From: Treponema sp.
GTDB taxonomy: Bacteria > Spirochaetota > Spirochaetia > Treponematales > Breznakiellaceae
Length of the DNA stretch: 43,206 bases
NCBI GenBank assembly: GCA_031267675.1
Contig: JAIRYT010000050.1
Span: forward strand, 1-43,206
Direction: 5' to 3'
Positions 19,943 through 42,845 of the stretch are shown here, piece after piece; the first letter of the stretch is position 1; each line of letters begins with the position of its first letter. A program made the translations under genes and the position numbers. The notes under the pieces are model-generated. The model was not told the DNA's origin and ran no database searches. It saw only the letters and a program-made list of their open reading frames with translations.

Positions 19943-19992
19943 CAAATTCGCAAGCTGCGTAGCAGCTTGAGGATTGACCTTTAGGTCAATCC
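19943..19992 (-). repeat. Stop-codon-associated structured repeat, copy after the Gfo/Idh/MocA gene
   Basis: Contains the palindrome GGATTGACC-TTTA-GGTCAATCC and, next to it, CAAGCTGC-gta-GCAGCTTG. On the coding strand the TGA of GGATTGACC is the in-frame stop codon of the oxidoreductase gene, so the repeat and the gene overlap. Confidence 0.8.
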
Positions 19993-20978
19993 TTAATTGA
20001 CGCAAGGTAGCGTATTACCGCAAGGGCGTCTTTTGCGTCCGACTGGGGTTTCCGCGTACGGTCCCTGGCGCAGGCGGCGGCGTCCGCGACCATACCGCTA
20101 AAATAACCGGTAGGCGCGGTAAATCCGTCCCGTGTTTTTTTAAGACTGCGAAACCCTTCGGCATAGGGACTTTCGGCGCTTTCCCAGACTTCAAAAATTC
20201 CGTTTCCTATGCGCAGCCTTCCCCTGACGCAGGAACATTCCAGTTCAAAAACAAGGTGATCGCGCTCCGCGCCCAGTTCCAGCAAAAAGGGCAGCGGATT
20301 TAACGCCGGAACAGAGGGATTTTTTAAAATTCCGGAAAGATACGCCGTACCGCCGGAAAGCATATTGGCCCTGCGTGTATGATGATACAATTCCGCTCCG
20401 GTAAGAAACATGACCGCGTCCGCCAGATGGGTCCCGTCGTGCCACAATACGTCCAGAAGACGGCGGCTTCTTCCCATGTAAAGGGTTCCCTTTACCCCCA
20501 GAAGCGGCCCCAGCTGTTCCCCCGCCAGTATGTTCCGCGCTTCGCGGTAATCCGCCGAATAACGCCGCTCGTGGTTTACCACGATGGTGATTGCTCCCCC
20601 CTCGGCAAGCGCGGCGATTTTTTTGGCCTTTCGAAGCGTATCGGCCAGCGGCTTTTCGCAGACCGCGACCTTTACCCCGTAACGGGCGGCAAGCGCGCAA
20701 TATTCCAGATGGCTGTCGGGGTGCGTGGCAATATGAACAATATCGGGTCTTTCGGCGGCAAACATGGTTTCGGCGTTTTCGTAGACGGGCGCATTCCAGC
20801 GTTCCAAAAACAGCGCGCGGCGTTCCGCGTTATTGTCCATGCCGGCGCGTAATATACAATCGCTGTTTGCGCTTACCGCGCCGGCATGGGTACAGGGTTT
20901 TTCGCGTTTTGAATCACTTTCAAGAAGGCTTGCAATGCGGCCAAGGCCTACAAGACACACCGACAGCTTTTGGCTCAT
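19986..20978 (-). CDS. Gfo/Idh/MocA-family oxidoreductase
   Basis: A 330-residue NAD(P)-dependent dehydrogenase. The N-terminal Rossmann domain begins LSVCLVGLGRIASLLESD, followed by DIVHIATHPDSHLEYCALAARYGVKVAVCEKPLADT with the family EKP motif (Lys and Pro at the nicotinamide). The C-terminal alpha/beta domain has the ALWHDGTH-like VLWHDGTHLADAV with the catalytic His region. Substrates in this family are sugars, inositol or their derivatives and cannot be assigned here. It is the last gene behind the HD-domain and ComFB genes, 38 bases after the latter. Its C-terminus (SIKD) and stop codon are supplied by the structured repeat. Confidence 0.88.
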   Translation of the reverse strand: MSQKLSVCLVGLGRIASLLESDSKREKPCTHAGAVSANSDCILRAGMDNNAERRALFLERWNAPVYENAETMFAAERPDIVHIATHPDSHLEYCALAARYGVKVAVCEKPLADTLRKAKKIAALAEGGAITIVVNHERRYSADYREARNILAGEQLGPLLGVKGTLYMGRSRRLLDVLWHDGTHLADAVMFLTGAELYHHTRRANMLSGGTAYLSGILKNPSVPALNPLPFLLELGAERDHLVFELECSCVRGRLRIGNGIFEVWESAESPYAEGFRSLKKTRDGFTAPTGYFSGMVADAAACARDRTRKPQSDAKDALAVIRYLASIKD

Positions 20979-21016
20979 CGTTTACCTACACATTTGTTAT
21001 GTTATTTGTACCGCGC

Positions 21017-21736
21017 TTATTCGTTTATGAGGCGCTGATCCTTTTCTTCGCCCGGACGGAACAGATATTGATCGGGAAGTTTAAATGTCCGCTCCATTGA
21101 AAAAGATTTGGCGCTGTAAACTTCGCTTTCTACGGGAATAAAAAAGACATATACAATTTCCGCATAATCCGCAGCGGTAACACGCAGGGTATATTCAAAA
21201 CCTCCGCGCGTTCCCGCCTCTTTGGCGGCGACAGGACGCGGCCAGAACGAAAACGCTCCATTAGTGTTGGGAATAATTTTATACGGATTCTGCCAGTTTT
21301 GATCTTTCATGGAAACATGATGACCGTTCTGTAAAAGTTCGACGTCGACTTCCGCCATCGGCGAAAAATTAAGGCCGCTAAAAACACGCCCCATTATTGT
21401 GGGAATATTGAACACCGGCGTTGTGTACGTTTCGTCCATATTTCTGCCGTGGGTTACATAGGGCCGCTGGTTATGGCTTACCCGCTTGATCCCTTCGTAC
21501 ACCAGGGCGGCAAGATCGGCCCTGTCCTGGGGATTGGCCTGATTGGCGCGGACAGCGCCCCGGTGGGAAACCACGTAGTAGGGGGTGATGTGATTAAGTA
21601 CATAGCAAACCGCATCCTGGCGGCATTTATCACAGGTACAGATGCCGGAAACCGGCTTCCCCTGGGCTTCAAGCGAGTCGCAGATTGAGTTGACTTCCTG
21701 AATAACCAGATCTTCCCTTGTATTGTGTATTTCCAT
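21017..21736 (-). CDS. ComFB-domain protein with an extra C-terminal domain
   Basis: A 239-residue protein. Residues 1 to about 100 match the ComFB family: NTREDLVIQEVNSI, then Cys33, Cys35, Cys38 and Cys44 in GICTCDKCRQDAVCYVLNHITPYYVVSHRGAV. The cysteines are likely to bind zinc. ComFB proteins of cyanobacteria have been reported as cyclic-di-GMP receptors; the B. subtilis founder is in the late competence operon. Residues about 110-239 form a beta-rich domain (VFNIPTIMGRVFSGLNFSPMAEVDVELL...) that I do not recognise. It lies between an HD phosphohydrolase and an oxidoreductase in one leftward run. Confidence 0.75.
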   Translation of the reverse strand: MEIHNTREDLVIQEVNSICDSLEAQGKPVSGICTCDKCRQDAVCYVLNHITPYYVVSHRGAVRANQANPQDRADLAALVYEGIKRVSHNQRPYVTHGRNMDETYTTPVFNIPTIMGRVFSGLNFSPMAEVDVELLQNGHHVSMKDQNWQNPYKIIPNTNGAFSFWPRPVAAKEAGTRGGFEYTLRVTAADYAEIVYVFFIPVESEVYSAKSFSMERTFKLPDQYLFRPGEEKDQRLINE

Positions 21737-21765
21737 CGCACTTAAAGGTAATTCAAATTTTATAC

Positions 21766-23052
21766 TTATGCAAGCATCTTAAGGATTTTTTGGGCGATGC
21801 CCGCGCCCTGTGGGCCCGGCTGGGCCAGCGGCTCTTTGGTAAATACACGGACAATACGCAGTGAGCCGACAAACGCGTCCAGCACATTTTTTTTGAAGGC
21901 GCTGGAACTTTCGCCAAAAGCAACCCCTTCATCCCGAACAAAAAGATCGGTTTCAAAAGAAACGCTCTCGGGAACATCTATGATCAAAGCCGGCGCGCCG
22001 GTATTTTTTCCCAGCTCCGCTTGAAGCCGCCCGGCAAGCAGCGCCTCTTTTTCAGACCGGGCCGCTATGGAATCAAGCCCGGTAATCGCGGTATAGGGAA
22101 AAGCCGCCGCTTCATAAAAGAGCCTGCCGCCCCGGACCTGCGCGGCAAGCTCAAAGGGCGCAAAGTTTTTTTTGCCCATAAGGGCAAAAAGCTCCTGATC
22201 GTCCAGACCGTAAAGATCATCGCCCCGGATTATTTTTGCGTCCAGCCCGGCACAGAGGGCTTTTTTTATCATGGCGGTCGCCGAACGAACCTGCCGGTGC
22301 CAATATACATTCCGGTACATAAGGTACTTTGAAAAAAGCAGCGCCTCTACCCCGGGAATTCCCCGCGAATCAATATCCACTCCCCGCAGGGGATGGGGAA
22401 TAAGGCGGGAAAAAATAAAATCGACATCCTGATCCCCGTAGGGGACGCCGCAGTAACGCGCGTCACGGTTAAGATAATCAAGCTTGTCGGGATCAAGAAC
22501 ACCGGAAAGCAGGCGGCGGTAAAAGAGCAGTTCGCCGCTTCCGGCCGGCGCGGTTTTATCAATAATCGCGGCGCATAATTCCGGATCGCCGCCCGCTTTT
22601 GCGACCAGCGAACGCTGCGGCTCGGCGCGTATTAAGCCGGCGGAAAGGCTTTCGTGATCCCGCAGGGCGATTTCCTTGAGCGAATGCGTGTAGGGAAAGT
22701 GCCCCAGATCGTGCAGCAGCGCGGCGGCAAGAAACGAAAACGCCCCCTGGCGGCTTATCAACGCGCCGGACTGTTCGGCAAGACCAGTAAGGAGCCGCCT
22801 CGCCAGATGGTACACGCCGATTGAATGTCCAAAACGCGTATGGGTAGCTCCCGGATAAACGCGGCAGGCGGGACCAAGCTGAAAAATCCGCCCAAGGCGC
22901 ATGAAGGCTTTTGTTTCGGTAAGGGCGGCGATGCCCTCAGTCATGTAAATATGGCCCCAGAGCGGGTCCCGCAGGGGGATGGTAAACGCTTCCCGCAAAA
23001 ACGAACCGGCATCCATATCTGTCACTATAGAAGAATATGGCGGCTTGGACAA
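21766..23052 (-). CDS. HD-superfamily phosphohydrolase (dNTPase-like)
   Basis: A 428-residue metal-dependent phosphohydrolase. The N-terminal DPLWGHIYMTEG and QLGPACRVYPGATHTRFGHSIGVYHLARRLL segment and the LLHDLGHFPYTHSLKEIALRDHE segment supply the H...HD...D metal ligands seen in dGTPase/SAMHD1-like proteins. VLDPDKLDYLNRDARYCGV is also characteristic. Relatives hydrolyse deoxynucleoside triphosphates or uncharacterised nucleotides. It is the first gene of a leftward run with the ComFB-domain protein (29 bases apart), which makes a nucleotide-signalling role conceivable but unproven. Confidence 0.87.
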   Translation of the reverse strand: MSKPPYSSIVTDMDAGSFLREAFTIPLRDPLWGHIYMTEGIAALTETKAFMRLGRIFQLGPACRVYPGATHTRFGHSIGVYHLARRLLTGLAEQSGALISRQGAFSFLAAALLHDLGHFPYTHSLKEIALRDHESLSAGLIRAEPQRSLVAKAGGDPELCAAIIDKTAPAGSGELLFYRRLLSGVLDPDKLDYLNRDARYCGVPYGDQDVDFIFSRLIPHPLRGVDIDSRGIPGVEALLFSKYLMYRNVYWHRQVRSATAMIKKALCAGLDAKIIRGDDLYGLDDQELFALMGKKNFAPFELAAQVRGGRLFYEAAAFPYTAITGLDSIAARSEKEALLAGRLQAELGKNTGAPALIIDVPESVSFETDLFVRDEGVAFGESSSAFKKNVLDAFVGSLRIVRVFTKEPLAQPGPQGAGIAQKILKMLA

Positions 23053-23075
23053 TCGCCGCCTGAATTGCCGGGTTT

Positions 23076-23267
23076 TTATTTCTTTGCCAATATCTCCATC
23101 ATGGCCGGGCGGTTTTTGTATTTGATTTTATACTGGGCTTTCATGTCCGCCGCCACTGCGCCGCCGCCGGGTATTTTTTTTATCTTTTTGAATACGCTGA
23201 CGATGCGCTCGTAACAGGGCCGGCCGGTATTTTCTTTTGCGGCAGTTATAACGATTCTTCCCTGAGC
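23076..23267 (-). pseudogene. 3' fragment of an unidentified leftward gene
   Basis: The reading frame ending at 23076 carries protein-like sequence (QGRIVITAAKENTGRPCYER, then AADMKAQYKIKYKNRPAMME) up to about 23267, where the antisense frame of a different, rightward gene begins. No start codon with a ribosome site exists within the fragment. It looks like the last 60 or so residues of a gene whose 5' part was removed by the event that also removed the 5' end of the neighbouring reductase. I do not recognise the family. Confidence 0.45.
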
Positions 23268-25067
23268 GGCGCGGCAATGATTATCCGGGGTACCTGCGGC
23301 TCCGTCAACGACGGCAGAGACCGCATGGCGCCGGGGGGCTACTGTTTCGCCGATGTTCACTCTCTGGAAAAGATCCGCAGGGAACTTACCATTATCAAGC
23401 AGCGGGGGGCTAAAGCTGAATTTGAACTTTGTCATGTGGGGCAGTACGCAACCAACCCAAAAGACGGGTATGCCATAGGCCCTGTATCCCTGATTCGTGA
23501 AGATGGCACCGAGGTGCGCGCCATGGACACCGGTATGATGGAATATGTCGTGGAGCGTTTTGTCAGTGCGGCGCTGGATGCAAAGAACTTTGGATTTGAC
23601 GCTATTTTGCTTCATTTTTCACATGGCTGGCTGCCGACCCAGTTTATGTCGCCCTATTTTAACAAGCGGACCGATGAATATGGGGGCAGCTTTGAAAACA
23701 GGATACGGTTTCCAAAAATGATAGTGGAAGCGGTAAGAAAGGCACTGGGTCCCGATTTTCCCCTTGATATGCGGATTAGCGGGGAAGAGCATGTCCCCGG
23801 GGGTATGCACATTGAAGAAGTTGCCGCTTTTATCCACGAAGTGGAAGACCATCTGGATATGGTTCATATTTCCTGCGGAATTGAACGGATTAAAAGCGGG
23901 ATCGTACACATGTCAACCTCACCCTTTGTAGGCCACATGTGTAACGCCGCTCTTTCCGAATTTGTCAGGAAGGCGGTAAAAATTCCTGTTGCCGTGGTAG
24001 GCGCAATCATGACCCCCGAGGAAGGCGAGCAAATCATAGCTTCGGGAAAGGCCGATGCCGTGGTGATTGGGAGGTAAATGCTCGCGGACCCGAATTGGGT
24101 TAAAAACGCCTGGGAATGCCGGGCAGAGGATACAGCCCCCTGTCTGCGCTGCCTTAACTGCTATGGGGAAGTGACTCCGCCGCTGCCGGGACGCAGAGGA
24201 TTTCAATACTGTTCCGTTAACCCCCGTGTTCATCGGGAAGATATTGTTCCCCGCAGGCTTGAAAAGGCTGAAAAACAAAAAAAAGTTGTTGTCATCGGAG
24301 GAGGACCCGCCGGCATGAAGGCCTCCCTTACGGCGAGGGAGCGGGGTCATGAGGTGATCCTTTTTGAAAAGAACGCTTCCCTTGGAGGACAAACCCGCTG
24401 TGCGGATTATGACAGCTACAAGGCGGATCTAAAGCGGTATCGGGATTATCTTATATGTCAGCTTCATAAATCCGCTGTTGATATCAGGCTTTCCACGGAA
24501 GCAACTCCCGAAATGGTTGCCGCTGAAAACCCCGACAGTCTTGTCCTTGCTTTGGGATCTGTTCCGTTCATCCCGAAAATCCCCGGCCTTGATGAAGTAA
24601 ATTTTCTTGCTTCGGCGGATGCGTACCCTAAAATCGGCGATACCGGAAAGCGGGTTTTCATTATTGGCGGGGGATCAATAGGCTGCGAGTTGGCTCTGCT
24701 GCTGGGAGAACTTGGCCGCGAAGTCGTGGTGGCGGAAATAGGCCCGCAGCTTTGTACTAACCTTAACGAATATTTTAGGGAGGGGCTTTTTGAAAAACTT
24801 AATGGCTGTTCAAAGGTGCGCTTCCATACTTCGTGTAAGGTAACACGGGTGGATAAGAACAGCGTTGATTTGGTTCTTCAGGACGGAAGCAGCCTGGAAC
24901 CTGCCATGGATACAATTATTGTTGCTGCGGGCTTAAAAACCCCAAGAGACAGGGTAAACAGCTTCTATGGCATAGTACAGGATACAAACAGTATCGGCGA
25001 CTGTAATTCGCCGGGTACTGTCCTTGAAGCGGTGGAAGACGCCTATTTTATCTGCGCTGCTCTTTAG
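23268..25067 (+). pseudogene. Broken Old-Yellow-Enzyme-type NADH:flavin oxidoreductase
   Basis: Two in-frame pieces of one protein. The first, from about 23268 to the TAA at 24075-24077, is the FMN barrel (GAKAEFELCHVGQYA, LLHFSHGWLPTQFMSPYFNKRTDEYGGSFENR, MRISGEE, DAVVIGR). The second resumes at once with MLADPNW and the iron-sulfur motif CLRCLNC...YCSVNP. The flavin/NAD domain follows (VVVIGGGPAGMKASL, VFIIGGGSIGCELALLL), ending at 25067. Relatives such as 2,4-dienoyl-CoA or bile-acid reductases are single chains of about 640-670 residues. The first 80 or so residues are missing. The gene is therefore 5'-truncated and interrupted by one stop codon; the second piece could be translated from the ATG right after it, but without an evident ribosome site. 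Confidence 0.82.
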
Positions 25068-25085
25068 GACAAAGATTTTTTACAA

Positions 25086-25108
25086 TCGTACCCGCCCCGA
25101 AATGGGCG
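25086..25108 (+). terminator. Hairpin after the broken reductase
   Basis: CCCGCCC/GGGCGGG stem, loop about six bases, 20 bases after the stop codon. A following T-run is lacking, so termination is uncertain. Confidence 0.4.
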
Positions 25109-25141
25109 GGGGCGCGGTTTCGAAAAAGCGAAGTGGAAACC

Positions 25142-25399
25142 ATGAGAACATTTGAATACACCGTTTGTGATGAACTTGGCCTTCATGCACGACCTGCCGG
25201 CAGACTGGTAAGATGCGCAAAAAGCTTTCTTAGCCGGATACGCGTGATCTGTAACGGTAAAAGCGGAGATGCAAAGCGGCTTATAGGCCTTATGAAGATA
25301 GAAATAAAAAAAGGCGAGCGCGTGCTTTTTGAAATTAACGGTGACGATGAAAAAGCCGCGGAAGAAAAATTACAGCGATTTTGCAGGGATAACCTTTAA
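25142..25399 (+). CDS. HPr-family phosphocarrier
   Basis: An 85-residue HPr. ATG at 25142 is preferred over a GTG nine bases upstream because it places the phosphorylated histidine at the canonical position 15 (GLHARPAG). The second half GDAKRLIGLMKIEIKKGERVLFEINGDDEKAA follows the HPr fold. The regulatory Ser46 of Gram-positive HPr is Arg46 here, so HPr-kinase control is excluded. It passes phosphate from enzyme I to EIIA proteins; a possible partner EIIA is encoded at 42123. No ptsI is in the window. It stands alone between the broken reductase and the AT-rich island. Confidence 0.9.
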   Translation: MRTFEYTVCDELGLHARPAGRLVRCAKSFLSRIRVICNGKSGDAKRLIGLMKIEIKKGERVLFEINGDDEKAAEEKLQRFCRDNL

Positions 25400-25468
25400 C
25401 AACTCCAACGCTTTGCCGTACAGGTTTTTTACCGGATTGCAGGCTCGGCAATATATCCGTAAATAATT

Positions 25469-26353
25469 TTAAAGGCCGTTTTTTCTTTTATATGTTATTG
25501 TATACCCTTGATCCATAAAACCATGATCTTCCTGCGCCGTAGATTCCCATTTTGTGTATACAATGGTATTCTCGTCATAGAACGTATACCGGGTACCATA
25601 ACTTACACTGCCGTCAGTGCTGTATACGGGCCTTTTATTATTTGAAACCAAAAAGCTTCCGAAAGGCGCTTCCAAACGGCCATAGTCGTTGATACTAATG
25701 ACGATTTCATCTTCGTCACCCTCTCTTATTTTTTCCATATCTTCAACAAGGGGGATAAATATTCCGGTATATTTTTTTTGAGCGTCATAAGAAAAATATA
25801 AATGTATTACCTCCTCTATATCATCATAATTTTTTACAAAGATATCTACATCGCTGTCTATAGCCATCATGACATCGTTGGGAAGAATGTTAAAGGCAAC
25901 ATAAAAGTTATTAAGGTCAACAGTATATCTGGCATAAACATAGACATCGCTTCCGTTCTCATTATAATGTTCTGATTCAAAATGAATTAAACTATCACCA
26001 ACGGTAAAGCCTTCGTAAATTTCTTTAGGTTCAGAATGACTTATAGTATCTAATATGAAGGATCCTTTCTCGACTATTTTTTCGTCTACAAATAATAGTT
26101 CTTTTACCATCAAAAAATCATCAAATGATACCTCCAAAATGATAATATCTTTTTTAGTTGCCCATTCCGGTACATAAAGATAATAACCTAAAAATTCATC
26201 AAGAACAGTTTTATAATCGATTTCTGGTTTATTCCGGATTATTTCTTGTTCGATAATTAATGGCTGATTACCTGTTTCTTCCACAGTATTCTTTTCAGTG
26301 TTGCATGAAACAAAAAAAATCCCAAAAAGTAATAAATATAAATATTTCAGCAT
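25469..26353 (-). CDS. Lipoprotein of unknown function
   Basis: A 294-residue protein starting at the ATG at 26353, chosen for the GGAG about eight bases upstream and because it places a lipoprotein signal (LKYLYLLLFGIFFVSC) at the N-terminus; the frame extends 13 codons further without support. The mature part is acidic and rich in Asp, Tyr and Ile with alternating beta-like segments. No catalytic motif is recognised. Base composition is strongly AT-biased compared with the flanking housekeeping genes, which suggests acquisition. A TTGACA box on the same strand lies near 26436-26441. Confidence 0.75.
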   Translation of the reverse strand: MLKYLYLLLFGIFFVSCNTEKNTVEETGNQPLIIEQEIIRNKPEIDYKTVLDEFLGYYLYVPEWATKKDIIILEVSFDDFLMVKELLFVDEKIVEKGSFILDTISHSEPKEIYEGFTVGDSLIHFESEHYNENGSDVYVYARYTVDLNNFYVAFNILPNDVMMAIDSDVDIFVKNYDDIEEVIHLYFSYDAQKKYTGIFIPLVEDMEKIREGDEDEIVISINDYGRLEAPFGSFLVSNNKRPVYSTDGSVSYGTRYTFYDENTIVYTKWESTAQEDHGFMDQGYTITYKRKNGL

Positions 26354-26451
26354 ATAATACTCCTGCCCATATGTACCAAGATGACGCATCATTCCAATTG
26401 TTTTTTATACCCATATTTGTTTAACATTATTTTTGTCAATACTGTTTTATT

Positions 26452-27300
26452 TCACTTATTCGGCGGATCGGGTTCCGTTCGCCTGGGCGGCCGGCGACAT
26501 CGTTCCCACGGCTCATTCCGCCCATTTTCAACATATTCTATTATTTTTATGAATCCTTCTTCCAGTATTCTTTGTTCCGGTTTTTTCTTTGGATCAAACA
26601 TATTTGCAACATTCTCGAAATGTTTTAGTGAATCCTCTATAAAATTATTTATTATTTCAATCTTTGGCTCTATTCCCATTTCTATCCCCGCCTTCTTTCT
26701 TGCCAGCAATTCATTGATTTTATCCAATAATGCCTTGTCATTAATTTGTGATAATAATTTTTCAAATTCCATTGGCGGCGTTTCTTTATAATTCTCTATC
26801 CACATACAGGCCATAACCGGCCGTAATACATAAAAATATTTTTTTATCTTTACTTCGTCCGCTTTTAAAAATTGTCTATAATTTCCATTTGCCATATGTA
26901 AATAATGGTATACCGCAGATATTGGCGAAAAGTATTCATTGGATAATTCTTCCATAATATCAAAAAAATAACTGTCTTTATAATATACCACCGGTGATTT
27001 TAACCATTCAAAAAATACCGGATTTGATTTATTTATTAAAAACATCGTTTTTCGTAAATCCCAGCCGGAATAGTCAAAATCATTAATAATTGGATATTCA
27101 ATAACGTCCCTTTTAGGAAGAATATTTAAATACCAATTTTTATTATGAACGTATATAAAACGTATATCGTAATCGCTGTCATTGGATTCAAAGCCCCAGG
27201 CTCTGGATCCTGATTCTACGGCATATAATATTTTAACACCATGCTCTTTTTCTATTTCGGGCAATCTTTTCTTTATAATTTCAGATATTTTCTGTTTCAT
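26452..27300 (-). CDS. Predicted nucleotidyltransferase (COG3541/YcgL-like)
   Basis: A 282-residue protein. Residues about 20-48 read ILYAVESGSRAWGFESNDSDYDIRFIY, the GSRAWG...DSDYDIR motif of polymerase-beta-like nucleotidyltransferases with the metal-binding Asp pair. The rest (NPVFFEWLKSPVVYY, YHYLHMANGNYRQFL, KKYFYVLRPVMACMWI) follows the COG3541 pattern; these enzymes are uncharacterised or occur in phage and mobile elements. The ATG at 27300 begins seven bases after a TACTAT box, so the message is probably leaderless; a longer frame to 27405 would start upstream of the promoter. The last 20 or so residues are encoded by abruptly GC-rich sequence and may be a fusion tail. Confidence 0.8.
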   Translation of the reverse strand: MKQKISEIIKKRLPEIEKEHGVKILYAVESGSRAWGFESNDSDYDIRFIYVHNKNWYLNILPKRDVIEYPIINDFDYSGWDLRKTMFLINKSNPVFFEWLKSPVVYYKDSYFFDIMEELSNEYFSPISAVYHYLHMANGNYRQFLKADEVKIKKYFYVLRPVMACMWIENYKETPPMEFEKLLSQINDKALLDKINELLARKKAGIEMGIEPKIEIINNFIEDSLKHFENVANMFDPKKKPEQRILEEGFIKIIEYVENGRNEPWERCRRPPRRTEPDPPNK

Positions 27301-27306
27301 ATTCAA

Positions 27307-27335
27307 ATAGTACCATATTCTTTTATACGGCGCAA
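27307..27335 (-). promoter_or_regulatory. Promoter giving a leaderless nucleotidyltransferase mRNA
   Basis: On the minus strand, TTGCGC, a 17-base spacer, then TACTAT, ending six bases before the ATG at 27300. The start nucleotide would be at or next to the A of ATG. Confidence 0.55.
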
Positions 27336-27342
27336 GGATGCG

Positions 27343-27425
27343 GCGCATTTTGCCGGCCCTGGTCTTTGCCGCAAAACCCTTGTCAGGGCTGTCAAAGCGT
27401 CGCAAACGGCCGGAACGTTAGGCGC
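27343..27425 (+). repeat. attC-like imperfect inverted repeat A
   Basis: Nested complementary segments interrupted by symmetrical bulges: GCGC (27343) with GCGC (27422), CCGGCC with GGCCGG, CTTTG with CAAAG, and CCCT with AGGG around TGTC. The right end carries GTTAGGC (27417-27423), a perfect match to the integron core consensus GTTRRRY. The left core is poorly conserved. Size and layout resemble a degenerate attC site. Confidence 0.4.
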
Positions 27426-27450
27426 AAGCCCAAAAAAATTTTAAAAGTGG

Positions 27451-27479: not shown

Positions 27480-27539
27480 GGATTTACGAAGAATTTAATA
27501 GCTACCAATATAGCAATACCTGTTTTGGGGGGTGATAGT

Positions 27540-27989: not shown

Positions 27990-28083
27990 GCATATTTCAA
28001 AAAACCGGATAAGGGCCCGGTCTTGCTACAGGCCCTTATCCGGGCCGGCAGAACATCGCATATACCCGGAACGTTATGCGCAA
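27990..28083 (+). repeat. attC-like inverted repeat B
   Basis: A perfect 13-base stem, CCGGATAAGGGCC (28005-28017) with its complement at 28031-28043, is flanked by GCATA (27990) and a right core GTTATGC (28073-28079) in the context CCGGAACGTTATGCGCAA. Repeat A has the near-identical context CCGGAACGTTAGGCGCAA, and both share a GGTCTT-like central loop. The strong stem could also be a terminator for the upstream lipoprotein gene, though no T-run follows. Confidence 0.42.
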
Positions 28084-28140: not shown

Positions 28141-28165
28141 TTGAAAAATTATGGAGGTGGTTGTA

Positions 28166-28735: not shown

Positions 28736-28750
28736 CATACAAAGAACAAA

Positions 28751-28778
28751 CTGCGCATAACAGACCGGTTATGCGCAG
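28751..28778 (+). repeat. Inverted repeat C with attC-type core ends
   Basis: Perfect 11-base stem CTGCGCATAAC/GTTATGCGCAG around the loop AGACCG. The GTTATGC arm equals the right core of repeat B, and AGACCGG is the complement of the central CCGGTCT of repeat B. It could be a collapsed attC site or a terminator-like hairpin. Confidence 0.45.
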
Positions 28779-33205: not shown

Positions 33206-33658
33206 ATGAAAAAAATAACATGGGTATGTATCTGTCTGATTGTTTTTTACGTCCCGCTTTTTACCCAGGAGCCTCCCGGCGCGCAGGAAGTTGCCCAGGA
33301 TCCTTCGCTGCTTGTCGGCGTTTCGATAAGCGATCTTATTACCCGCTACGGCGTGCCCAAACAGGTTAAAGCGGCGCGGGGAGCAGCCGAATGGCAGGAT
33401 GATGTCGTATTTATTTACGATTCCGGCGAATACTATGTCTACCTCGACCGTGTCTGGCAGGTACGGGTAAAATCGGCGTATGGAGTAAAAGAAGGCGACC
33501 CCCGTACTGCGGTAAACCGCGCATTGGGCGAAGGCAGGGATTTTAACGGTTACAGCCTTTATCAGCGGCCCAGCAAAATGTGGCCCATTATGATTCGAAT
33601 TAACTGGACCGCATCGGGACGAACCGAAGGTATGTATATTTTCCGCTCGGATTTTTAG
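33206..33658 (+). CDS. Small exported protein of unknown function
   Basis: A 150-residue protein with a signal peptide (ITWVCICLIVFYVPLF, cleavage near TQEPPG) and an AAAGGAG ribosome site. The mature part has SLLVGVSISDLITRYGVPKQV, then YDSGEYYVYLDRVWQVRVKSAYGVKEGDPR, a layout reminiscent of small periplasmic SmpA/BamE-like folds in which a GxS...L..RYG.P motif precedes a beta-hairpin. This resemblance is only by pattern. The C-terminus ends in aromatic beta segments (MYIFRSDF). It follows the PASTA gene by 43 bases, and a structured repeat starts directly after its stop. Confidence 0.72.
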   Translation: MKKITWVCICLIVFYVPLFTQEPPGAQEVAQDPSLLVGVSISDLITRYGVPKQVKAARGAAEWQDDVVFIYDSGEYYVYLDRVWQVRVKSAYGVKEGDPRTAVNRALGEGRDFNGYSLYQRPSKMWPIMIRINWTASGRTEGMYIFRSDF

Positions 33659-33720
33659 GAGGACCTAAAGATCAATCCTCGAGCTGCCGCGCAGCTTGCG
33701 AATTTATTTGCTGGTGGAGC
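33659..33720 (+). repeat. Stop-codon-associated structured repeat, copy before aroDE
   Basis: GACCTAAAGATCAATCC, then GAGCTGCCGCGCAGCTTG and CGAATTTATTTGCTGG, in the orientation of the upstream gene and beginning right after its TAG. Its distal end GGTGGAG has become the ribosome-binding site of aroDE. Confidence 0.75.
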
Positions 33721-33722
33721 AA

Positions 33723-35243
33723 ATGGCTAAATTATGTTTATGTCTTACCGGAAAAACGATAGCCCGCAATCTGGAAATACTGGACCGGTACCGTTCCTTT
33801 ATCGACATTGCCGAACTTCGCGTTGATCATCTTGATCCCGACGAACGCTTTTCCATTCGAATGTTTCCCGAACAGGCGGGAATTCCGGTAATTCTTACCA
33901 TACGGCGCAGAATCGACGGCGGGCTTTTTGATAATGGCGAAGGCTCGCGGGTGTCGCTGCTTTCAAAAGGGCTTGCCTTTGCCGAGGCGGACCGCAGGCA
34001 TAATTTTGCCTATGTCGATTTGGAAGAAGACCTGGAAGTCCCCGGCCTGGAAGATGCCGCGCGTACCTTTGGCACGCGCATCATACGGTCATTCCACGAC
34101 TTTGACGGCGTGGGCGACGACATTGTTAAACGCCTGCGAAACATGCGCCGCGTCGGCGATGAAATTGTAAAAGCCGCGGTCATGCCCCGGACGCTGTCCG
34201 ATGTTTCCAGGGTGTACCGTATCGCCGCCCAAACAAAGGACCTTGAAAAAATTCTTATCTGTATGGGCCCGCTGGGAATCAACACGCGCATACTTGCAAA
34301 CCGTTTGGGTTCTCATCTTTCCTACGCTTCCCCCTCGGGCGAAGGCGACACAGAAAAGGCGTCCCCGGGCCAGCTTGATCCGAGGGACATGGCCGAGTTA
34401 TACCGCTTTCGCTCGGTAGGCGAAAAAACAAAAATTTTGGGCGTTACCGGGCATCCGCTTAAAACAACATTCAGCCCGATGATCTTTAATACCGTGTTTA
34501 ACCACGAAAAGATCGACGCCGTGTATGTTCCCTTTCCCGCCGATGATCTTGAAGGATTTTTGGAGCTTGCCCGCGAAATCAAACTTTTAGGCGCCTCAAT
34601 TACCGTTCCCTACAAAGAAGAAATTATTCCCTTTCTTGAAGAAACTTCGGATGTGGTTTCCGCTATCGGCGCCTGCAATACCATACTTTTTAACGGCGAA
34701 AAATGGAGCGGCATTAATACCGATACCTCTGGTTTTTCCGAGTCGCTTTTATCGGTCATGAACCGCAAACATTTTAAGGGGCTTAAGTTTACCATAATCG
34801 GCGCAGGCGGCGCGGCAAAAGCGGTGGCCCACGAAATCTTTCGCCTAAAGGGAAAATGCCTCGTACTTAACCGCGGCGCCGTACGCGCGCGCGATTTGGC
34901 CCATCACTATCATTTTAAATGGGGCGGCCTTGACAGCGGAAGCCTTGACCTTATGGATTCCTATTCAGACGCAATCATTCAGACAACGCCGGTAGGAACA
35001 TTCCCCAATCTGGAAAGCGACCCCTTTCCCCAATATCCCTTTAAGGGAAGCGAGGTCGTGATGGACCTTATCTACAACCCCCAGCGCACCGCCTTTCTAA
35101 AACGCGCCCAGGCGGGGGGTTGCACTATTGTTAATGGTTTTGATATGCTTGTCCGGCAGGCAAAGTATCAGTATCAGTTCTTTCTTGACAGGGATTTTCC
35201 CGATCAGCTTATTCCCCGGCTCAAGCTTTGGGCGGGTCAGTAG
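33723..35243 (+). CDS. aroDE: 3-dehydroquinate dehydratase/shikimate dehydrogenase fusion
   Basis: A 506-residue bifunctional enzyme of the shikimate pathway. The N-terminal half (about 1-225) is type I dehydroquinase: CLTGKTIARNLEIL, AELRVDHL, the catalytic His125 in RSFHDF and the Schiff-base Lys150 in EIVKAAVMP. The C-terminal half (about 236-506) is AroE: LGVTGHPLKTTFSPMIFN, SITVPYKEEI with the catalytic Lys, GACNTI, and NADP-binding GAGGAAKAV. The shikimate-contacting HSxSP motif is TTFSP here, a mild deviation. The frame opens at 33696, but ATG at 33723 has GGTGGAG five bases upstream and fits the domain start. Such fusions are known in plants and some bacteria. Confidence 0.93.
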   Translation: MAKLCLCLTGKTIARNLEILDRYRSFIDIAELRVDHLDPDERFSIRMFPEQAGIPVILTIRRRIDGGLFDNGEGSRVSLLSKGLAFAEADRRHNFAYVDLEEDLEVPGLEDAARTFGTRIIRSFHDFDGVGDDIVKRLRNMRRVGDEIVKAAVMPRTLSDVSRVYRIAAQTKDLEKILICMGPLGINTRILANRLGSHLSYASPSGEGDTEKASPGQLDPRDMAELYRFRSVGEKTKILGVTGHPLKTTFSPMIFNTVFNHEKIDAVYVPFPADDLEGFLELAREIKLLGASITVPYKEEIIPFLEETSDVVSAIGACNTILFNGEKWSGINTDTSGFSESLLSVMNRKHFKGLKFTIIGAGGAAKAVAHEIFRLKGKCLVLNRGAVRARDLAHHYHFKWGGLDSGSLDLMDSYSDAIIQTTPVGTFPNLESDPFPQYPFKGSEVVMDLIYNPQRTAFLKRAQAGGCTIVNGFDMLVRQAKYQYQFFLDRDFPDQLIPRLKLWAGQ

Positions 35244-35840: not shown

Positions 35841-35904
35841 AATATGACAAAGCCGCGGACGGAATTCATCAGTCCAGACTTGAACAACCGGAGGATTTTG
35901 GGAC

Positions 35905-37602: not shown

Positions 37603-38926
37603 CAAGTATGTAGATCGCCTTACCGGGACCAGCCTCATCGATCCCGAACTATACGACCGCTTTAATGTCAAGCGGGGGCTCCGCAACGCCGATGGAACCG
37701 GCGTGCTTGTCGGCCTTACCCGCATCGGCGACGTCCACGGTTACATTATCGACGAGGGCGAAAAAATACCCCAGGAAGGCAAACTCTACTATCGCGGAAT
37801 CGATGTAGAAGACATTGTCCATAACGCCGCCGCCGAAGACCGTTACGGTTTTGAAGAAACGGTATATCTTCTTCTTTTTGGCGAGCTGCCCGCCCGCGAA
37901 GAACTGGATGATTTTTCTACCCTGATTGGAAACTGTCACGCCCTTCCCCACAATTTTGCGGAAGACGCGATTATGAAGGCGCCGTCGCGGGATGTCATGA
38001 ACAAGCTTGCGCGTTCGGTGCTTACCCTGTATTCATACGACGAAGATCCCGAAAACCGCTCGCCCAAAAACATTCTGCGCCAGTGCCTGGAACTTATCGC
38101 GCGTTTTCCTACGATTGTGGCATATTCGTACATGGCAAAAAAGCACTACTATGATCACGAAAGTCTTATTATTCACATGCCGGATTCCAGGTGCAGCTGC
38201 GCGGAAACAGTGCTTTCCCTTATACGGAGCGATCAACGGTTTACCCGTCTTGAGGCGGAGGTGCTGGATCTAAGTCTGGTTCTGCACGCCGAACACGGCG
38301 GGGGCAATAATTCAACCTTTGCCGTTCATCTTGTTTCATCCGCGGATACCGACACCTTTTCGGCGATTACCGCAGGCCTTGTGTCCCTTAAGGGACACAG
38401 GCACGGCGGCGCCAACATTAAAGTCATACAGATGATGGACGAAATAAAAGGCGCGGTAAAACGCTGGGACAGCGAAGGCGAAGTTGCCGACTACCTTACC
38501 CGCATTTTGCGCGGCGAAGTCCACGACGGTTCCGGCCTGATCTACGGACAGGGACACGCCGTTTATACCAAAAGCGATCCGCGCGCCGTGCTGCTTAGGG
38601 AACGGGCGGCCCTTTTGGCAAAAGAAAAAAGCTTTACGGATGAATTTAACCTGTACTGCCTTATCGACGCCTTGTCCCCGGAAGTATTCAAAAAGGTAAA
38701 AGGGTCTGACAAGGTAATCTGCGCCAACGTTGATTTTTATTCGGGCTTTGTATACCGGATGCTTGGAATTCCCGCGGAACTTTATACGCCGCTTTTTGCG
38801 GTCAGCCGTGTAGCCGGCTGGTGCGCCCACCGCCTTGAAGAAGTAATCGGCGCGGGCAAAATTATCCGCCCGGCCTATAAATGCGTTCAGCGCCGAAGGG
38901 ACTATGTGCCGTTTTTGCAGCGCTGA
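37568..38926 (+). CDS. Citrate synthase
   Basis: A 452-residue enzyme with VKRGLRNADGTGVLVGLTRIGDVHGY and EGKLYYRGIDVEDIV near the N-terminus, the catalytic pieces VLHAEHGGGNNSTFA, GHRHGGANIKV and GHAVYTKSDPRA, and the FYSGFVYRMLGIP segment. It joins acetyl-CoA and oxaloacetate. The frame opens at a TTG at 37526; GTG at 37568 is preferred because it gives the usual 20-25 residues before IDPELY, but neither has a clear ribosome site. It lies 35 bases inside the acyl-CoA synthetase gene and probably depends on translational coupling. A 2-methylcitrate synthase cannot be fully excluded. Confidence 0.9.
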   Translation: MSKYGKKRNSINKYVDRLTGTSLIDPELYDRFNVKRGLRNADGTGVLVGLTRIGDVHGYIIDEGEKIPQEGKLYYRGIDVEDIVHNAAAEDRYGFEETVYLLLFGELPAREELDDFSTLIGNCHALPHNFAEDAIMKAPSRDVMNKLARSVLTLYSYDEDPENRSPKNILRQCLELIARFPTIVAYSYMAKKHYYDHESLIIHMPDSRCSCAETVLSLIRSDQRFTRLEAEVLDLSLVLHAEHGGGNNSTFAVHLVSSADTDTFSAITAGLVSLKGHRHGGANIKVIQMMDEIKGAVKRWDSEGEVADYLTRILRGEVHDGSGLIYGQGHAVYTKSDPRAVLLRERAALLAKEKSFTDEFNLYCLIDALSPEVFKKVKGSDKVICANVDFYSGFVYRMLGIPAELYTPLFAVSRVAGWCAHRLEEVIGAGKIIRPAYKCVQRRRDYVPFLQR

Positions 38927-38949
38927 CAGTCTGCCGGACTTACCGGGCT

Positions 38950-39125
38950 TACCGTCAGGCTGCCCCGGCAAATAAATTCGCAAACTGCGCAGCCGAATTC
39001 ACAAGCCGCGCCGCCGCGCAGCGGGTCGAGGATTGACCTTTAGGTCAGTAGCCGTCAGGGCTGCCCAACCAGTAAATTCGCAAGCCGCGCAGCAGGTTGT
39101 CGGGGATTGACCTTTAGGTCACTCC
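38950..39125 (-). repeat. Stop-codon-associated structured repeats after the first SDR gene
   Basis: About two units. Each has AAATTCGCAAG, CCGCGCAGCAGG-type and GGATTGACCTTTAGGTCA segments, plus a GTAGCC-GTCA-GGGCTGC hairpin in one. The unit next to the leftward SDR gene abuts its TAA. A more decayed part reaches towards the citrate synthase end. Confidence 0.75.
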
Positions 39126-39881
39126 TTAATCCATATAGTAACCGCCGTTAATATTTACATTCTCGCCGTTAATAAAGCCCGCCTCGCCGGAGGCAAGAAA
39201 CAGCATAAGGGCGGATATGTCTTCAACGGTACCCAGGCGGCGCACGGGGATTTTTGCGGCGGCATCCTGTCTGCGGCCTTCGTCCCAGTATGCCATAAGC
39301 TGCGTCATTACCGCGTGCGGCGCGATGCTGTTACAGGTGACGCCAAACGGCCCCAGATTATAGGCGACGGACCTTGTCACCGAAAGCAGCGCGCCCTTTG
39401 AAGCGCCGTACGCAAAAGTTGTCGAGTGGTCGCCCATTTTTCCGCAGATCGAAGAAACATTGATAATCCTTCCGTACTTTTGTTTTTTCATGTGCGGCGT
39501 TACCGCGCGAATCGCGTAAAGGGCGCCTTTTACATTAATATCAATTGTCGCGTCAATAAGCTCGTCCGTGGTTTCTTCGATAGAAAAATTTTTTAAAATT
39601 CCCGCGTTATTTACCAGAATATCCACCCGGCCAAACGCCTCTACGGTTTTTTTTACCAGATTGTCAATTTCGCTTCGTTTTGAAACATCACAGCGGACGG
39701 CGATATGGGTAATTCCCGCTTTTGAAAGCTGACGGTCCGCTTCTTCAAGAAGCGCCGCGTTCACGTCAGAAATCGCCACGCTCGCTCCTTCTGCCGCCAT
39801 ATCCCTGGCAAGCTGAAACCCAATGCCCTGCGCCGACCCGGTAATAATGGCGGCCTTTCCGGTAAACCTGTCTTCTCTCAT
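39126..39881 (-). CDS. Short-chain dehydrogenase/reductase
   Basis: A 251-residue SDR. It has cofactor-binding TGSAQGIGFQLA, NNAGIL, catalytic Ser in NVSSICGK and YGASKGALLSV (Tyr-x3-Lys), and the C-terminal GFINGENVNINGGYYMD ending typical of 3-oxoacyl-ACP-reductase-like sugar or polyol dehydrogenases. GGAGG precedes the ATG. It is the last gene of a leftward set with the zinc dehydrogenase and a second SDR; structured repeats lie on both sides. Substrate unknown, probably a polyol or sugar acid. Confidence 0.9.
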   Translation of the reverse strand: MREDRFTGKAAIITGSAQGIGFQLARDMAAEGASVAISDVNAALLEEADRQLSKAGITHIAVRCDVSKRSEIDNLVKKTVEAFGRVDILVNNAGILKNFSIEETTDELIDATIDINVKGALYAIRAVTPHMKKQKYGRIINVSSICGKMGDHSTTFAYGASKGALLSVTRSVAYNLGPFGVTCNSIAPHAVMTQLMAYWDEGRRQDAAAKIPVRRLGTVEDISALMLFLASGEAGFINGENVNINGGYYMD

Positions 39882-39909
39882 ATAAAACCTCCAAATAGTA
39901 TCGATGCCG

Positions 39910-40073
39910 GCGGATTGACCTTTAGGTCAGCAGCCGCAAGGCTGCCCAGCAAATAAATTCGCAAGCTGCGCAGCAGGTCGGGGATTGACCTTTAGGTCAG
40001 CAGCCGCCAGGCTGCCCAGCCAACAAATTCGCAAGTTGCGCAGCAACTTGGCGGGGACTGACCTTTAGGTCAT
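39910..40073 (-). repeat. Tandem stop-codon-associated structured repeats after the zinc dehydrogenase gene
   Basis: Two tandem units of about 73 bases. Each has GGATTGACCTTTAGGTCA, a GCAGCC-GCAA-GGCTGC or GCAGCC-GCCA-GGCTGC hairpin, CCCAGC, AAATTCGCAAG and TGCGCAGCA. The outermost TGACCTAAAGGTCA (coding strand) provides the TGA stop codon of the dehydrogenase gene. Confidence 0.82.
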
Positions 40074-41098
40074 TCCCGCGGGGTAAGCACTACCTTTGCG
40101 TATTTCATATCCATTACCCCCTGGTAGCCTTCCAGCCATTTTTCCATGGGGAGTACGGTGATCATTTTGGCAAATTCATCTTTGCAAAGCTGTAAAAGTT
40201 TTACCGCTTCTTTTACCTGATCGGGCGTTGAGTCCGACGTACCGTAAAGAACCAGTTCATTGTAGTGAATCATCCGGCTGGACAAACCAAGTTTTTCCCT
40301 GTCGGGGGGAAGGCTGGCAAAATAGGAAACATAACCGCCTTTGCGCGCATACGAAGGGGCTTTTTCCTGTATGCTTTGCACCGGCGCGGCAATTACCACC
40401 AGTTCAAAACCCAGGCCGCCGGAATATTCACGGTAAACGCCGTCAAGGTCTTCGGGCCGAATTACCGTAAAACCGAGCGCCTTTGCGATTTCTGCCTTTT
40501 GTCCGGCAAAATCGCTGGTAACAATGTTTTTTACCCCGGCGCTCCTTATGGCAATCGCGTGCAGCAACCCTATGGCGCCAAGCCCGATTATAAGGACATC
40601 CTGCATTTTAGATACCGGCGCGCGGGATAATCCGTTTACTACACAACTAAGCGGTTCCGCAATTGCCGCCACCGGCGCGGGAATATCATCCGGACAGGAA
40701 ACAAGATGACCGCCGCTTATCGCATCGGGCGGCAGGGCCAGGTATTCGGCCATTGCGCCGGGAATCTGGAACCCAATCGAACGCGGGGCGGCGCACAAAT
40801 TCCGCCTGCCCGCTTTACAGTAATAACAAACACCGCAGCCGATGGTAGGCGCCATTACCACCCTGTCGCCTTTTTTAAAAACCGGCGTTTTACTTTCTTC
40901 TATGCGGCCCACAAATTCATGACCCACCGTCTGCGGATGCGTAAGCCGGTTGTTGCCCGCATTGTATGCCTTGATGTCGGTACCGCACACAGAAAACGCT
41001 TCTGTTTTAACAAGAACCCCGCCTTCTTCGCATTGGGGAACCGGAGCATCTGTTTCCAGCCGAAGATCTTTTATTCCGTACCATTGCAGCCTTTTCAT
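40070..41098 (-). CDS. Zinc-dependent medium-chain alcohol/polyol dehydrogenase
   Basis: A 342-residue MDR enzyme. The catalytic zinc site includes SVCGTDIKAYN and HEFVGRIEES; the structural zinc loop is GCGVCYYCKAGRRNLC (four Cys); the NAD-binding segment VLIIGLGAIGLLHAIAI follows. Layout fits L-threonine, sorbitol or galactitol-phosphate dehydrogenases. GGAGG is seven bases before the ATG. It lies 11 bases after the upstream SDR gene. Its C-terminus TPRE and TGA are at the edge of a structured repeat. Confidence 0.9.
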   Translation of the reverse strand: MKRLQWYGIKDLRLETDAPVPQCEEGGVLVKTEAFSVCGTDIKAYNAGNNRLTHPQTVGHEFVGRIEESKTPVFKKGDRVVMAPTIGCGVCYYCKAGRRNLCAAPRSIGFQIPGAMAEYLALPPDAISGGHLVSCPDDIPAPVAAIAEPLSCVVNGLSRAPVSKMQDVLIIGLGAIGLLHAIAIRSAGVKNIVTSDFAGQKAEIAKALGFTVIRPEDLDGVYREYSGGLGFELVVIAAPVQSIQEKAPSYARKGGYVSYFASLPPDREKLGLSSRMIHYNELVLYGTSDSTPDQVKEAVKLLQLCKDEFAKMITVLPMEKWLEGYQGVMDMKYAKVVLTPRE

Positions 41099-41109
41099 CT
41101 GTATCCTCC

Positions 41110-41883
41110 CTACCGGCCCATCATTCCGCCCGTCACATCAAAAACCGCGCCGGTAGAATACGAAGCGGCGGCGCTTGCCAAAAAGGCAACCATTTCGCCG
41201 ACTTCGCGAACTTCTCCAAGCCGCTTGAGCAATAAATTCTGCTGATATTTTTTTACCGCTTCTTCATCGGTCAGGGTAACCGCGGTCAGCCCGGTAAGGA
41301 GCATGCCCGGGCACACCGTGTTTACAAAAATGCCGTATTTGGCCGCTTCTTTTGCCAGCGATATGCCAAAGGAAACAACCGCTCCCTTTGAAGCGGAATA
41401 GTGTGTCTTGCCGTTTTTGCTCCCGTTAAAGGCGGCCTGGCTTGCAATATTGATAATACGACCGCCGCGTTTTTGCGGAATGGCGCGGCGCAAAAATTCC
41501 CTGCACATAAGGAATATCGAATCGACATTGACCGCCATACAGTCCCGCCATGTTTTAAAATCGGAATCGACAATGGAAACATGAGGACAAACGCCCGCGT
41601 TATTTACCAAAATGGTAACGGGCCCCAGTTCCTTTTCGGCAATGTCAAAAACTGCTGCCACATCCGCCTCGCGGGAAACGTCCGCTTCGACAGGCACGGC
41701 CTTGACCGCGTACGCGGCGCTTAGTTCGTCCGCGATACCCCGGGCCTTATCCCCGCTCGCCGCGTGACCATAGCCAAGCAGCAAATCGACCCCTTCGCGG
41801 GCAAGCACCCGGGCAATTCCCTCGCCCAGACCCCGCGAAGCCCCGGTAATAATCGCTTTTTTTCCTTTGAGGTTTAGTTCCAC
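41110..41883 (-). CDS. Short-chain dehydrogenase/reductase
   Basis: A 257-residue SDR beginning at GTG after GGAGAG. It has TGASRGLGEGIA, NNAGVCPH, NIASQAAF and YSASKGAVVSFG, and the C-terminal STGAVFDVTGGMMGR. It is first in the leftward operon with the zinc dehydrogenase and the other SDR. Together the three could oxidise and reduce successive positions of a sugar alcohol or sugar acid; no transporter or kinase is present to define which. Confidence 0.9.
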   Translation of the reverse strand: MELNLKGKKAIITGASRGLGEGIARVLAREGVDLLLGYGHAASGDKARGIADELSAAYAVKAVPVEADVSREADVAAVFDIAEKELGPVTILVNNAGVCPHVSIVDSDFKTWRDCMAVNVDSIFLMCREFLRRAIPQKRGGRIINIASQAAFNGSKNGKTHYSASKGAVVSFGISLAKEAAKYGIFVNTVCPGMLLTGLTAVTLTDEEAVKKYQQNLLLKRLGEVREVGEMVAFLASAAASYSTGAVFDVTGGMMGR

Positions 41884-41911
41884 GTTACTCTCCGGTTATT
41901 GTGACAGGAGG

Positions 41912-41940
41912 ATTGTAACATGAAAAACAAAACCTGTCAA
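41912..41940 (-). promoter_or_regulatory. Promoter of the dehydrogenase operon
   Basis: On the minus strand, TTGACA, a 17-base spacer, then TACAAT: near-consensus, start near 41905, leader about 22 bases with a GGAGAG ribosome site. Confidence 0.8.
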
Positions 41941-41955
41941 CAAATCGAGCAAAAC

Positions 41956-42042
41956 TTACATCATATTACAATATATTCATTATTTTTGGCGTAAAATCAT
42001 GGATATTCACTGATACTTTACAAGATATTACACTATTTTACA
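41956..42042. promoter_or_regulatory. Phased TTACA boxes between divergent promoters
   Basis: Two related 22-base segments, 41956-41977 and 42018-42039, agree at most positions and start 62 bases apart. Within each, TTACA recurs every ten bases (41956, 41966; 42018, 42028, 42038), one helical turn. They lie upstream of both the dehydrogenase promoter and the EIIA promoter, as expected for operator sites of a regulator binding as tandem subunits. Confidence 0.5.
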
Positions 42043-42084
42043 TGCCCGCGCGAAAGAATCCCGGCTGACGTTTGCTAAATTCAC

Positions 42085-42113
42085 TTGACTTTTGAACTAA
42101 ACTATTTTACTAT
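42085..42113 (+). promoter_or_regulatory. Promoter giving a nearly leaderless EIIA mRNA
   Basis: TTGACT, a 17-base spacer, then TACTAT, ending nine bases before the ATG. No Shine-Dalgarno lies between. Confidence 0.6.
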
Positions 42114-42122
42114 GAATTCAGT

Positions 42123-42569
42123 ATGAACCTTAAAACTGTTTTAACCAAAGACACAATCAGCCTTCATTTGAAGGGTTCCACGAAAGAGGAGATTATTAAC
42201 GAGCTCCTTGATATTCTTGTTCAGGCCGGCAAAATTCAGGATTGCCCCGCAGCGTTCGCGGCGGTCATGGATCGCGAGCAAAAAATGTCCACCGGCATGA
42301 AGCACGGAATCGCCATTCCCCACGGTAAAAGCGCAACCATCAAAGACCTTGTGGCCTGTATCGGCGTCTCCGATACCGCCGTAGATTTTGACGCGCTGGA
42401 TCACGAACCCTGCCGAATCTTTATTATGACCCTTTCCCCACTTGAAAAAACAGGACCGCACCTCCAGTTTCTTGCCGAAGTTTCCCTGCTTTTTAAAAGC
42501 GCCGAAAAACGGTCCGAGATACTTAAAGCGGACAGCCCCGAAGCGATTTTAAGGATTTTAGCGGAATAA
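42123..42569 (+). CDS. PTS EIIA domain protein, fructose/nitrogen type
   Basis: A 148-residue protein of the PTS_EIIA_2 family. The phosphorylated His67 lies in GMKHGIAIPHGKS, preceded by DREQKMSTG as in PtsN and fructose EIIA. The C-terminal part LSPLEKTGPHLQFLAEVSLLFKSAEKRSEIL is also typical. No EIIB/EIIC domain or gene is near, so a regulatory role like PtsN is more likely than sugar uptake. It may accept phosphate from the HPr at 25142. The start is within about three bases of the predicted transcription start. A structured repeat follows three bases after its stop codon. Confidence 0.9.
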   Translation: MNLKTVLTKDTISLHLKGSTKEEIINELLDILVQAGKIQDCPAAFAAVMDREQKMSTGMKHGIAIPHGKSATIKDLVACIGVSDTAVDFDALDHEPCRIFIMTLSPLEKTGPHLQFLAEVSLLFKSAEKRSEILKADSPEAILRILAE

Positions 42570-42572
42570 GAA

Positions 42573-42845
42573 GGATTAACCTAAAGGTTAATCCCCGACC
42601 TGTTGCGCGGTGCTGCGGCTTGCGAATTTATCTGCTGGGCAGCCTGACGGCTGCTGACCTAAAGGTCAATCCCCCGATCTGCGGTTGTCGGGCAGATACA
42701 GCGAAAAATGATACGTAAGCGACACTGCTGCGCGTCACAGCTTGCAGTTTGCGAGCTTGTCGGTCGGGCAGTTGACGGTTGCTGACCTAAAGGTTAATCC
42801 TCGACCTGCTGCCGCAGTGTTGCGGCTTGTGGATTTGTTTGATGA
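42573..42845 (+). repeat. Stop-codon-associated structured repeats after the EIIA gene
   Basis: Two to three units in the gene's orientation. The first has GGATTAACC-TAAA-GGTTAATCC, a paired G-to-A and C-to-T change relative to the GGATTGACC/GGTCAATCC form elsewhere. GCAGCC-TGAC-GGCTGC and TTGCGAATTTAT segments follow, then GACCTAAAGGTCAATCC, and a third, decayed unit at about 42760-42845. No gene is seen from 42570 to 42911. Confidence 0.8.

Follow-up and report, generated by a model that had tools for sequence, protein, structure and literature searches.

Why repeats resembling repetitive extragenic palindromes (REPs) crowd at the ends of genes is an old question. PMC3733652 places REPs mainly between unidirectional and convergent genes, close to 3′ ends in the two families drawn, and shows that their GTAG termini often supply TAG stop codons. 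PMC12306157, which covers REPs of Leptospira, Borrelia, and Spirochaeta, cites Liang 2015 for the stalling of ribosomes by REPs within 15 nt of a stop codon, a class that holds 260 of 496 Escherichia coli REPs; in its own wider count, 446 of 4,072 REPs lie that close. Here, we describe a repeat family from a Treponema sp. genome, recognized in a 43,206-nt stretch of contig JAIRYT010000050.1 ('the window', meaning the whole of that stretch), in which the 5′ edge lies within a few bases of a stop codon in most copies and for which a genome of the same genus offers empty sites. It is probably a lineage-specific family of dispersed palindromic repeats similar to REPs and bacterial interspersed mosaic elements (BIMEs), and probably non-autonomous.

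The assembly is 2.49 Mb in 110 contigs and 87.9% complete. A covariance model built from copies gives 129 matches at E≤0.05, corresponding to at least 126 units in at least 85 arrays after removal of three opposite-strand shadows; these are lower bounds, because the best 150 of 1858 candidates were scored. Most arrays hold a single unit (58 of 85), with 16 double, nine triple, one of four, and one of five, and neighbouring units no more than 300 bp apart form 41 pairs on the same strand and none on opposite strands. Across the genome there are 62 occurrences of the 14-mer core TGACCTAAAGGTCA and none of its reversed control. By match score, 44 arrays reach at least 60 bits, 10 lie between 40 and 60, and 31 of 85 fall below 40 and look decayed.

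The unit is ~70–105 bp and opens with a hairpin (H1) of consensus GGATTGACC-TAAA-GGTCAATCC, with the variants CGATT..AATCG, AGATT..AATCT, and GGAGCGACC..GGTCGATCC. H1 is followed mostly by YCG and a short linker, then by a second hairpin (H2; AAGCTGC-TGC-GCAGCTT and paired variants) with a conserved segment on its 3′ side, TTGCGAATTTATTNGCTGG or TTGCGAATTT; at least 11 copies carry an extra 3′ hairpin around CGGTAAACCG, which brings the unit to ~105 bp. H1 alone is 22 nt, and the whole unit exceeds the 20–40 bp usual for REPs. Units stand singly or in direct tandem, with GCAGCC..GGCTGC joining one tandem unit to the next core, and start-to-start steps are mostly 65–82 bp, with a tail of longer steps and two short ones from cut matches. 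As for the terminal inverted repeats and target duplications that characterize MITEs, no terminal inverted repeat was noticed by eye in the unit, none having been computed; in 11 copies words common to both unit ends were longer than under shuffled pairing (5.4 versus 4.0; p 0.0045), the right flank being the next unit in three of these copies.

Both main hairpins covary. In 35 aligned units 90.6% of the H1 and H2 cells are paired, compared with at most 41.6% for slid versions of the structure, and two-sided change is seen in 24 cells (mean of 6.4 in shuffles, none of 500 as high), a comparison to be read with the caveat that related sequences can beat shuffles even without structure. Further pair types, one of five covariation measures, are not outstanding (17 versus 15.1 shuffled; 76 of 500), and H1 position 4 is mismatched in 16 of the 35 units. 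In 46 of 56 copies the nucleotide immediately upstream of H1 pairs with the one that opens the linker, counting G-T (28.8 after permutation, sd 2.6; 0/5000), so either the element extends further left than it was set, or the stem draws one base from the gene or from its stop codon; the G at −3 may also pair across a bulge with a near-invariant linker C. One subfamily reads TAGGAG-CGACC-TAAA-GGTCG, with TAGGAG itself in 10 of the 24 copies of this GGAG subfamily, which closely resembles REPs such as TGTAGGAGCGGATTCATCCGCGAT listed in PMC2817692.

Placement was scored on 59 stretches picked for holding copies (758 kb of the 2.49 Mb, window included), with genes called by a hexamer script. The upstream gene is co-directional for 67 of the 85 arrays, opposite for 13, and not known for four; two arrays lie inside called genes, one of them among those four. 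In 53 of the 85 the 5′ edge falls at −14 to +4 of a co-directional stop codon, where random positions fall in 0.84% of cases overall and 4.9% when non-genic, and the preference for gene ends and for the gene's strand suggested in a preliminary description of the window is thus borne out by the genome-wide search. When each array is kept in its own gap, 51 of 75 lie near a stop as against 14.8 (sd 3.1) expected at random, 10 arrays that lack a called neighbour or lie in a gene being omitted. That description also held that random insertion would not give such placement; the placement is indeed non-random, and the argument holds only if selection is left out. Five further arrays have a 3′ end that abuts the stop of an opposite gene.

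The commonest offsets are −12, which puts the stop in the loop (15 arrays); −7, which puts it in the 5′ arm (12); −1, where TA is joined to the first G of the repeat (11); and 0 (4). A stop codon lies inside −3 to +22 of the repeat – the first hairpin stretch or the three bases before it – in 47 of 85 arrays, the codon being a TGA of the 5′ arm, a TAA of the loop, or TA completed by the repeat's first G. The repeat supplies C-terminal tails (such as GLT, GAT, RD, and RE), and the family illustrates how repeats can rewrite protein C-termini. Among the 31 stops inside the element the three frames are represented 15, 14, and 2 times, the two being in the frame that lacks an early stop.

Other repeats of the same genome, with families A and C scored by a second, simpler gene caller on short loci, behave similarly in part. 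Family A (GTAGTGTCAACTTATT) has 20 co-directional and four opposite upstream genes and 7 of 27 copies at −14 to +4, and family C (GGCTGATTAGGCTAAAAGA; e.g. C35:34947 and C77:9053) has seven and two, with 2 of 9 at −14 to +4; family B (ATTCGCGTAATTCGCG) has no such 3′-end habit in eight places. Since families A and C also favour a co-directional 3′ position, less sharply, the bias may in part be a property of this genome as a whole. The 27 family A places (up to two mismatches; three without a called upstream gene) include 28831, 29686, and 30196 in the window, where each copy follows a small gene without a Pfam match, in succession and cassette-like. Four family A copies have a GTAG whose TAG serves as the stop codon.

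The ends of orthologous genes were compared with those of G055, a genome of the same genus, with orthologues taken as the best tblastn matches in its fetched loci and synteny not required. Of 54 genes, nine had no match in those loci and four were set aside (identity <60%), leaving 41 pairs. With one mismatch allowed, no core occurs up to 200 nt from the G055 stop in any of the 41, three of them having less than 200 nt of sequence available, and the protein ends at the same length in 21 and within three codons in 33. A diagnostic 16-mer, GACCTAAAGGTCRATC, occurs 69 times in this genome and in no other of 195 family or 390 order genomes (overlapping sets), a search by exact pattern that misses diverged relatives. 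The covariance model found no match at E≤0.001 in 16 chosen relatives (best 150 candidates scored in each), and a genus-wide search gave one weak match, in G055 (E 0.013). A scan of viral contigs matched three contigs (one unrelated sequence), and a scan of a genome-contig collection, which may exclude this genome itself, gave 0 matches. With the core absent at 41 G055 ends and the 16-mer limited to this genome, gain in this lineage is likelier than loss elsewhere.

Other repeats occur in genomes G029 and G055. Four exact 14-mers in G029 were considered as candidate copies and rejected, as they are part of an unrelated repeat bounded by ACCACGAAT...ATTCGTGGT, which carries TGACCTAAAGGTCA in all four exact matches. 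G055 has a hairpin repeat of its own, GGCTGTTCCAAAACTTCAGTTTTGGAACAGCC, with six matches in 185 kb of chosen loci.

The family has the general attributes of REPs: it is a short palindromic repeat, in many copies, extragenic, and near gene 3′ ends. It resembles the GTAG/RAYT-associated REPs of PMC3733652 in being a high-copy short palindrome lying mostly beside gene 3′ ends, where in those REPs the tag often supplies the TAG stop, and differs from them in the scarcity of an exact GTAG (6 of 56 copies, at −3 to +1), in its longer multi-hairpin direct-tandem unit, and in stops that also come from the arm TGA and the loop TAA. Stop-adjacent REPs of E. coli (PMC12306157) likewise have a hairpin at or next to the stop, and their share (260 of 496) is like the 53 of 85 here, so that crowding around stop codons is not peculiar to this family; here, by contrast, most stops fall within the hairpin stretch. 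The YPAL/RU-2 element of Yersinia, compared by description only (PMC2229807), differs in being ~168 bp with target duplications of 3–26 bp, and its description does not mention placement on stop codons. What is new is the family itself, its direct-tandem multi-hairpin unit, and stop codons carried in the 5′ arm and the loop. The location of REPs at 3′ ends of genes and the supply of TAG stops by their tags (PMC3733652), as well as ribosome stalling there (PMC12306157, citing Liang 2015), have been published. Among the literature matches listed, no title concerns a Treponema REP family, which does not establish that the family is new to print, and the 14-mer core was not found in the paper texts searched.

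If the family is REP-like, its hairpins would be recognized as single-stranded DNA by a mobilizing enzyme supplied in trans, Y1/RAYT-like as is thought for REPs. Copies on stop codons may survive because the unit carries stops in two frames and would end the protein at once, and perhaps also because a hairpin transcribed at that point does no harm or brings a benefit, protecting 3′ ends or slowing terminating ribosomes as reported for E. coli REPs. The preliminary description proposed a mobile element that targets gene ends, or a 3′-end processing or stability module that spreads by recombination, and is partly supported: the gene-end placement holds and the empty orthologous ends fit a spreading element. 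No mobilizer was found in the one enzyme family searched. That search, with PF01797 (Y1_Tnp), gave two fragments near contig starts (L003 3–212 and L004 67–309, −), whose best NCBIfam match is IS200/IS605 NF033573, both below its cut-off.

Several observations weigh against the REP-like interpretation. No RAYT was seen in the 87.9% complete assembly, PF01797 being the only transposase family searched, no second genome with copies is present among those searched, and movement itself was not seen. The tag is a further difficulty: its exact form is too scarce for the family to belong, strictly, to the GTAG superfamily. GTAG does occur in the 10-nt 5′ flank of 7 of 56 copies as against 2.7 shuffled, and TAG at −2 to +1 in 12 of 56, 10 of these among the 24 GGAG subfamily copies, making a decayed tag possible; a CGTC tag is found in 0 of 56 on either side, and the 3′ flanks read in reverse have TGTC in 10 of 56 and CCTC in 0 of 56 (no shuffled control), with 1 of 56 each in the 5′ flanks. 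Arrays are direct (41 pairs to 0), not alternating as in BIMEs, and eight of the 41 protein ends differ from the G055 orthologue by more than three codons, being up to 22 codons shorter. Finally, placement at −14 to +4 is sharper among better-preserved copies (33 of 44 arrays at ≥60 bits, 7 of 10 at 40–60, and 13 of 31 below 40), a trend that speaks against slow purging being the sole cause.

That last relationship leaves alive a mobile repeat that targets stop codons, or a coupled DNA feature, by the way it inserts, in sense orientation; this is compatible with a REP-like origin and, as an explanation in its own right, rather unlikely. In its favour are the pile-up on stops even in gaps of ≥100 bp (10 of 23 arrays versus 1.1 expected) and 24 convergent gaps in which 20 arrays lie on the co-directional stop and one on the opposite stop only, as well as an excess of G over a frame-matched background at −3 (30 of 43 versus 11.6) and −9 (25 of 43 versus 13.3). 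However, no single target sequence accounts for the sites, no enzyme was found in the one family searched, decay also blurs the measured offsets, and the 29 to 2 division of stop frames among 31 looks like selection on the protein end. A more specific form, in which sense-directed insertion at the stop replaces the gene's own stop with one in the arm, loop, or foot and termination takes place inside the hairpin, seems to us quite improbable.

A functional 3′ module – for mRNA 3′-end protection or processing, or a hairpin answering the terminating ribosome – that recombination spreads and selection retains shares ground with the REP-like interpretation and is, on its own, similarly doubtful. 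The covarying hairpins, the co-directional position, and the stops within −3 to +22 point to it, as does the reported stalling of ribosomes by E. coli REPs within 15 nt of stops (PMC12306157, citing Liang 2015). Same-genus orthologues nevertheless manage without the repeat (core in 0 of 41), and the 31 arrays below 40 bits look decayed.

Intrinsic transcription terminators are very unlikely. In their favour are the gene-end position of the hairpins, the conserved T-rich TTGCGAATTTATT behind H2, and an H2 in the window (40050–40032, −) that passes a loose terminator scan, but there is no T-run after H1 and the Ts after H2 are neither immediate nor unbroken. Terminator-like matches in 38700–43000 are at shuffle level (6 versus 6.6 expected), and at one site (L031, by eye) the repeat has a terminator-like hairpin and T-run behind it. 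Generic terminator hairpins would have undone the preliminary description; the copies have loop and linker sequence in common. Integron attC sites or cassettes, also palindromic and also following stop codons in gene direction, are barely credible, since the hosts include chromosomal genes such as groL, the orthologous ends are empty, and the attC core words are lacking in H1, although no search aimed at an integrase was made.

Elsewhere in the window, at 27377–27427, 28033–28083, and 28745–28772, there are sites with GTTAGGC/GTTATGC and GCATAAC words that resemble integron attC sites, near a gene at 26452–27348. That gene was suspected of encoding an integrase and is instead RlaP.

Returning to the REP-like family, the window holds copies at the following six places, with offsets given relative to the gene end:

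17843–17926 (−): decayed copy at the groL end (gene 17926–19569, −; Cpn60_TCP1 match), R1 22.5 bits, offset −1; its first G is the G of the groL TAG stop, and the same-genus groL ends with TAA at the same codon, with the core not found after it.

19924–19992 (−): single unit at the end of a GFO_IDH_MocA oxidoreductase gene (19986–20978, −; Pfam), R1 74.6 bits, offset −7; core 19975–19988, with the 5′-arm TGA (19988–19986) as the oxidoreductase stop; two clean hairpins, fold z −5.15.

33658–33725 (+): single unit, R1 62.4 bits, offset −1; its first G completes the TAG of the 33206–33658 gene (no Pfam match), and it precedes a DHquinase_I/Shikimate_dh_N gene (Pfam); empty site in the same-genus genome.

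38953–39125 (−): two-unit array, R1 77.1 and 47.3 bits, offset 0, directly after the TAA (39128–39126) of a short-chain dehydrogenase gene (39126–39881, −); the same-genus gene ends at the same codon, with the core not found after it.

39912–40076 (−): three-core array at the end of a zinc-binding dehydrogenase gene (40070–41098, −; Pfam), R1 86.2, 63.2, and 14.7 bits, offset −7; core 40059–40072, with the first 5′-arm TGA (40072–40070) as the dehydrogenase stop; fold of 39905–40080, z −7.41.

39986–40076 (−), within the preceding array: best-scoring unit of the window plus the next core, in the order H1 (40055–40076), linker, H2 (AAGTTGC-TGC-GCAACTT), TTGCGAATTT, GCAGCC..GGCTGC, next core.

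42573–42857 (+): three-core array, R1 63.5, 22.6, and 32.4 bits, offset +3, lying 3 nt after the TAA of a phosphotransferase system (PTS) EIIA gene (42123–42569, +; Pfam) and upstream of tRNA-Pro (42912–42987); fold z −5.29.

The five places named in the preliminary description are all confirmed, with offsets of −7, −1, 0, −7, and +3, and the positions of the cores agree with its statement that the core TGA is the stop codon of the oxidoreductase (open reading frame end 19986) and the zinc dehydrogenase (40070). The repeat runs in the direction of the upstream gene at all six places, groL included; what had been taken for a half-copy after groL is a nearly full-length, decayed match. The copy at 33658 folds poorly (z −0.93), its first hairpin being damaged, and no orthologue of the zinc-binding dehydrogenase was found in the fetched same-genus loci. 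At the contig end, ~43124–43206, the window has low-complexity G/C and GT runs that are probably an assembly artefact.

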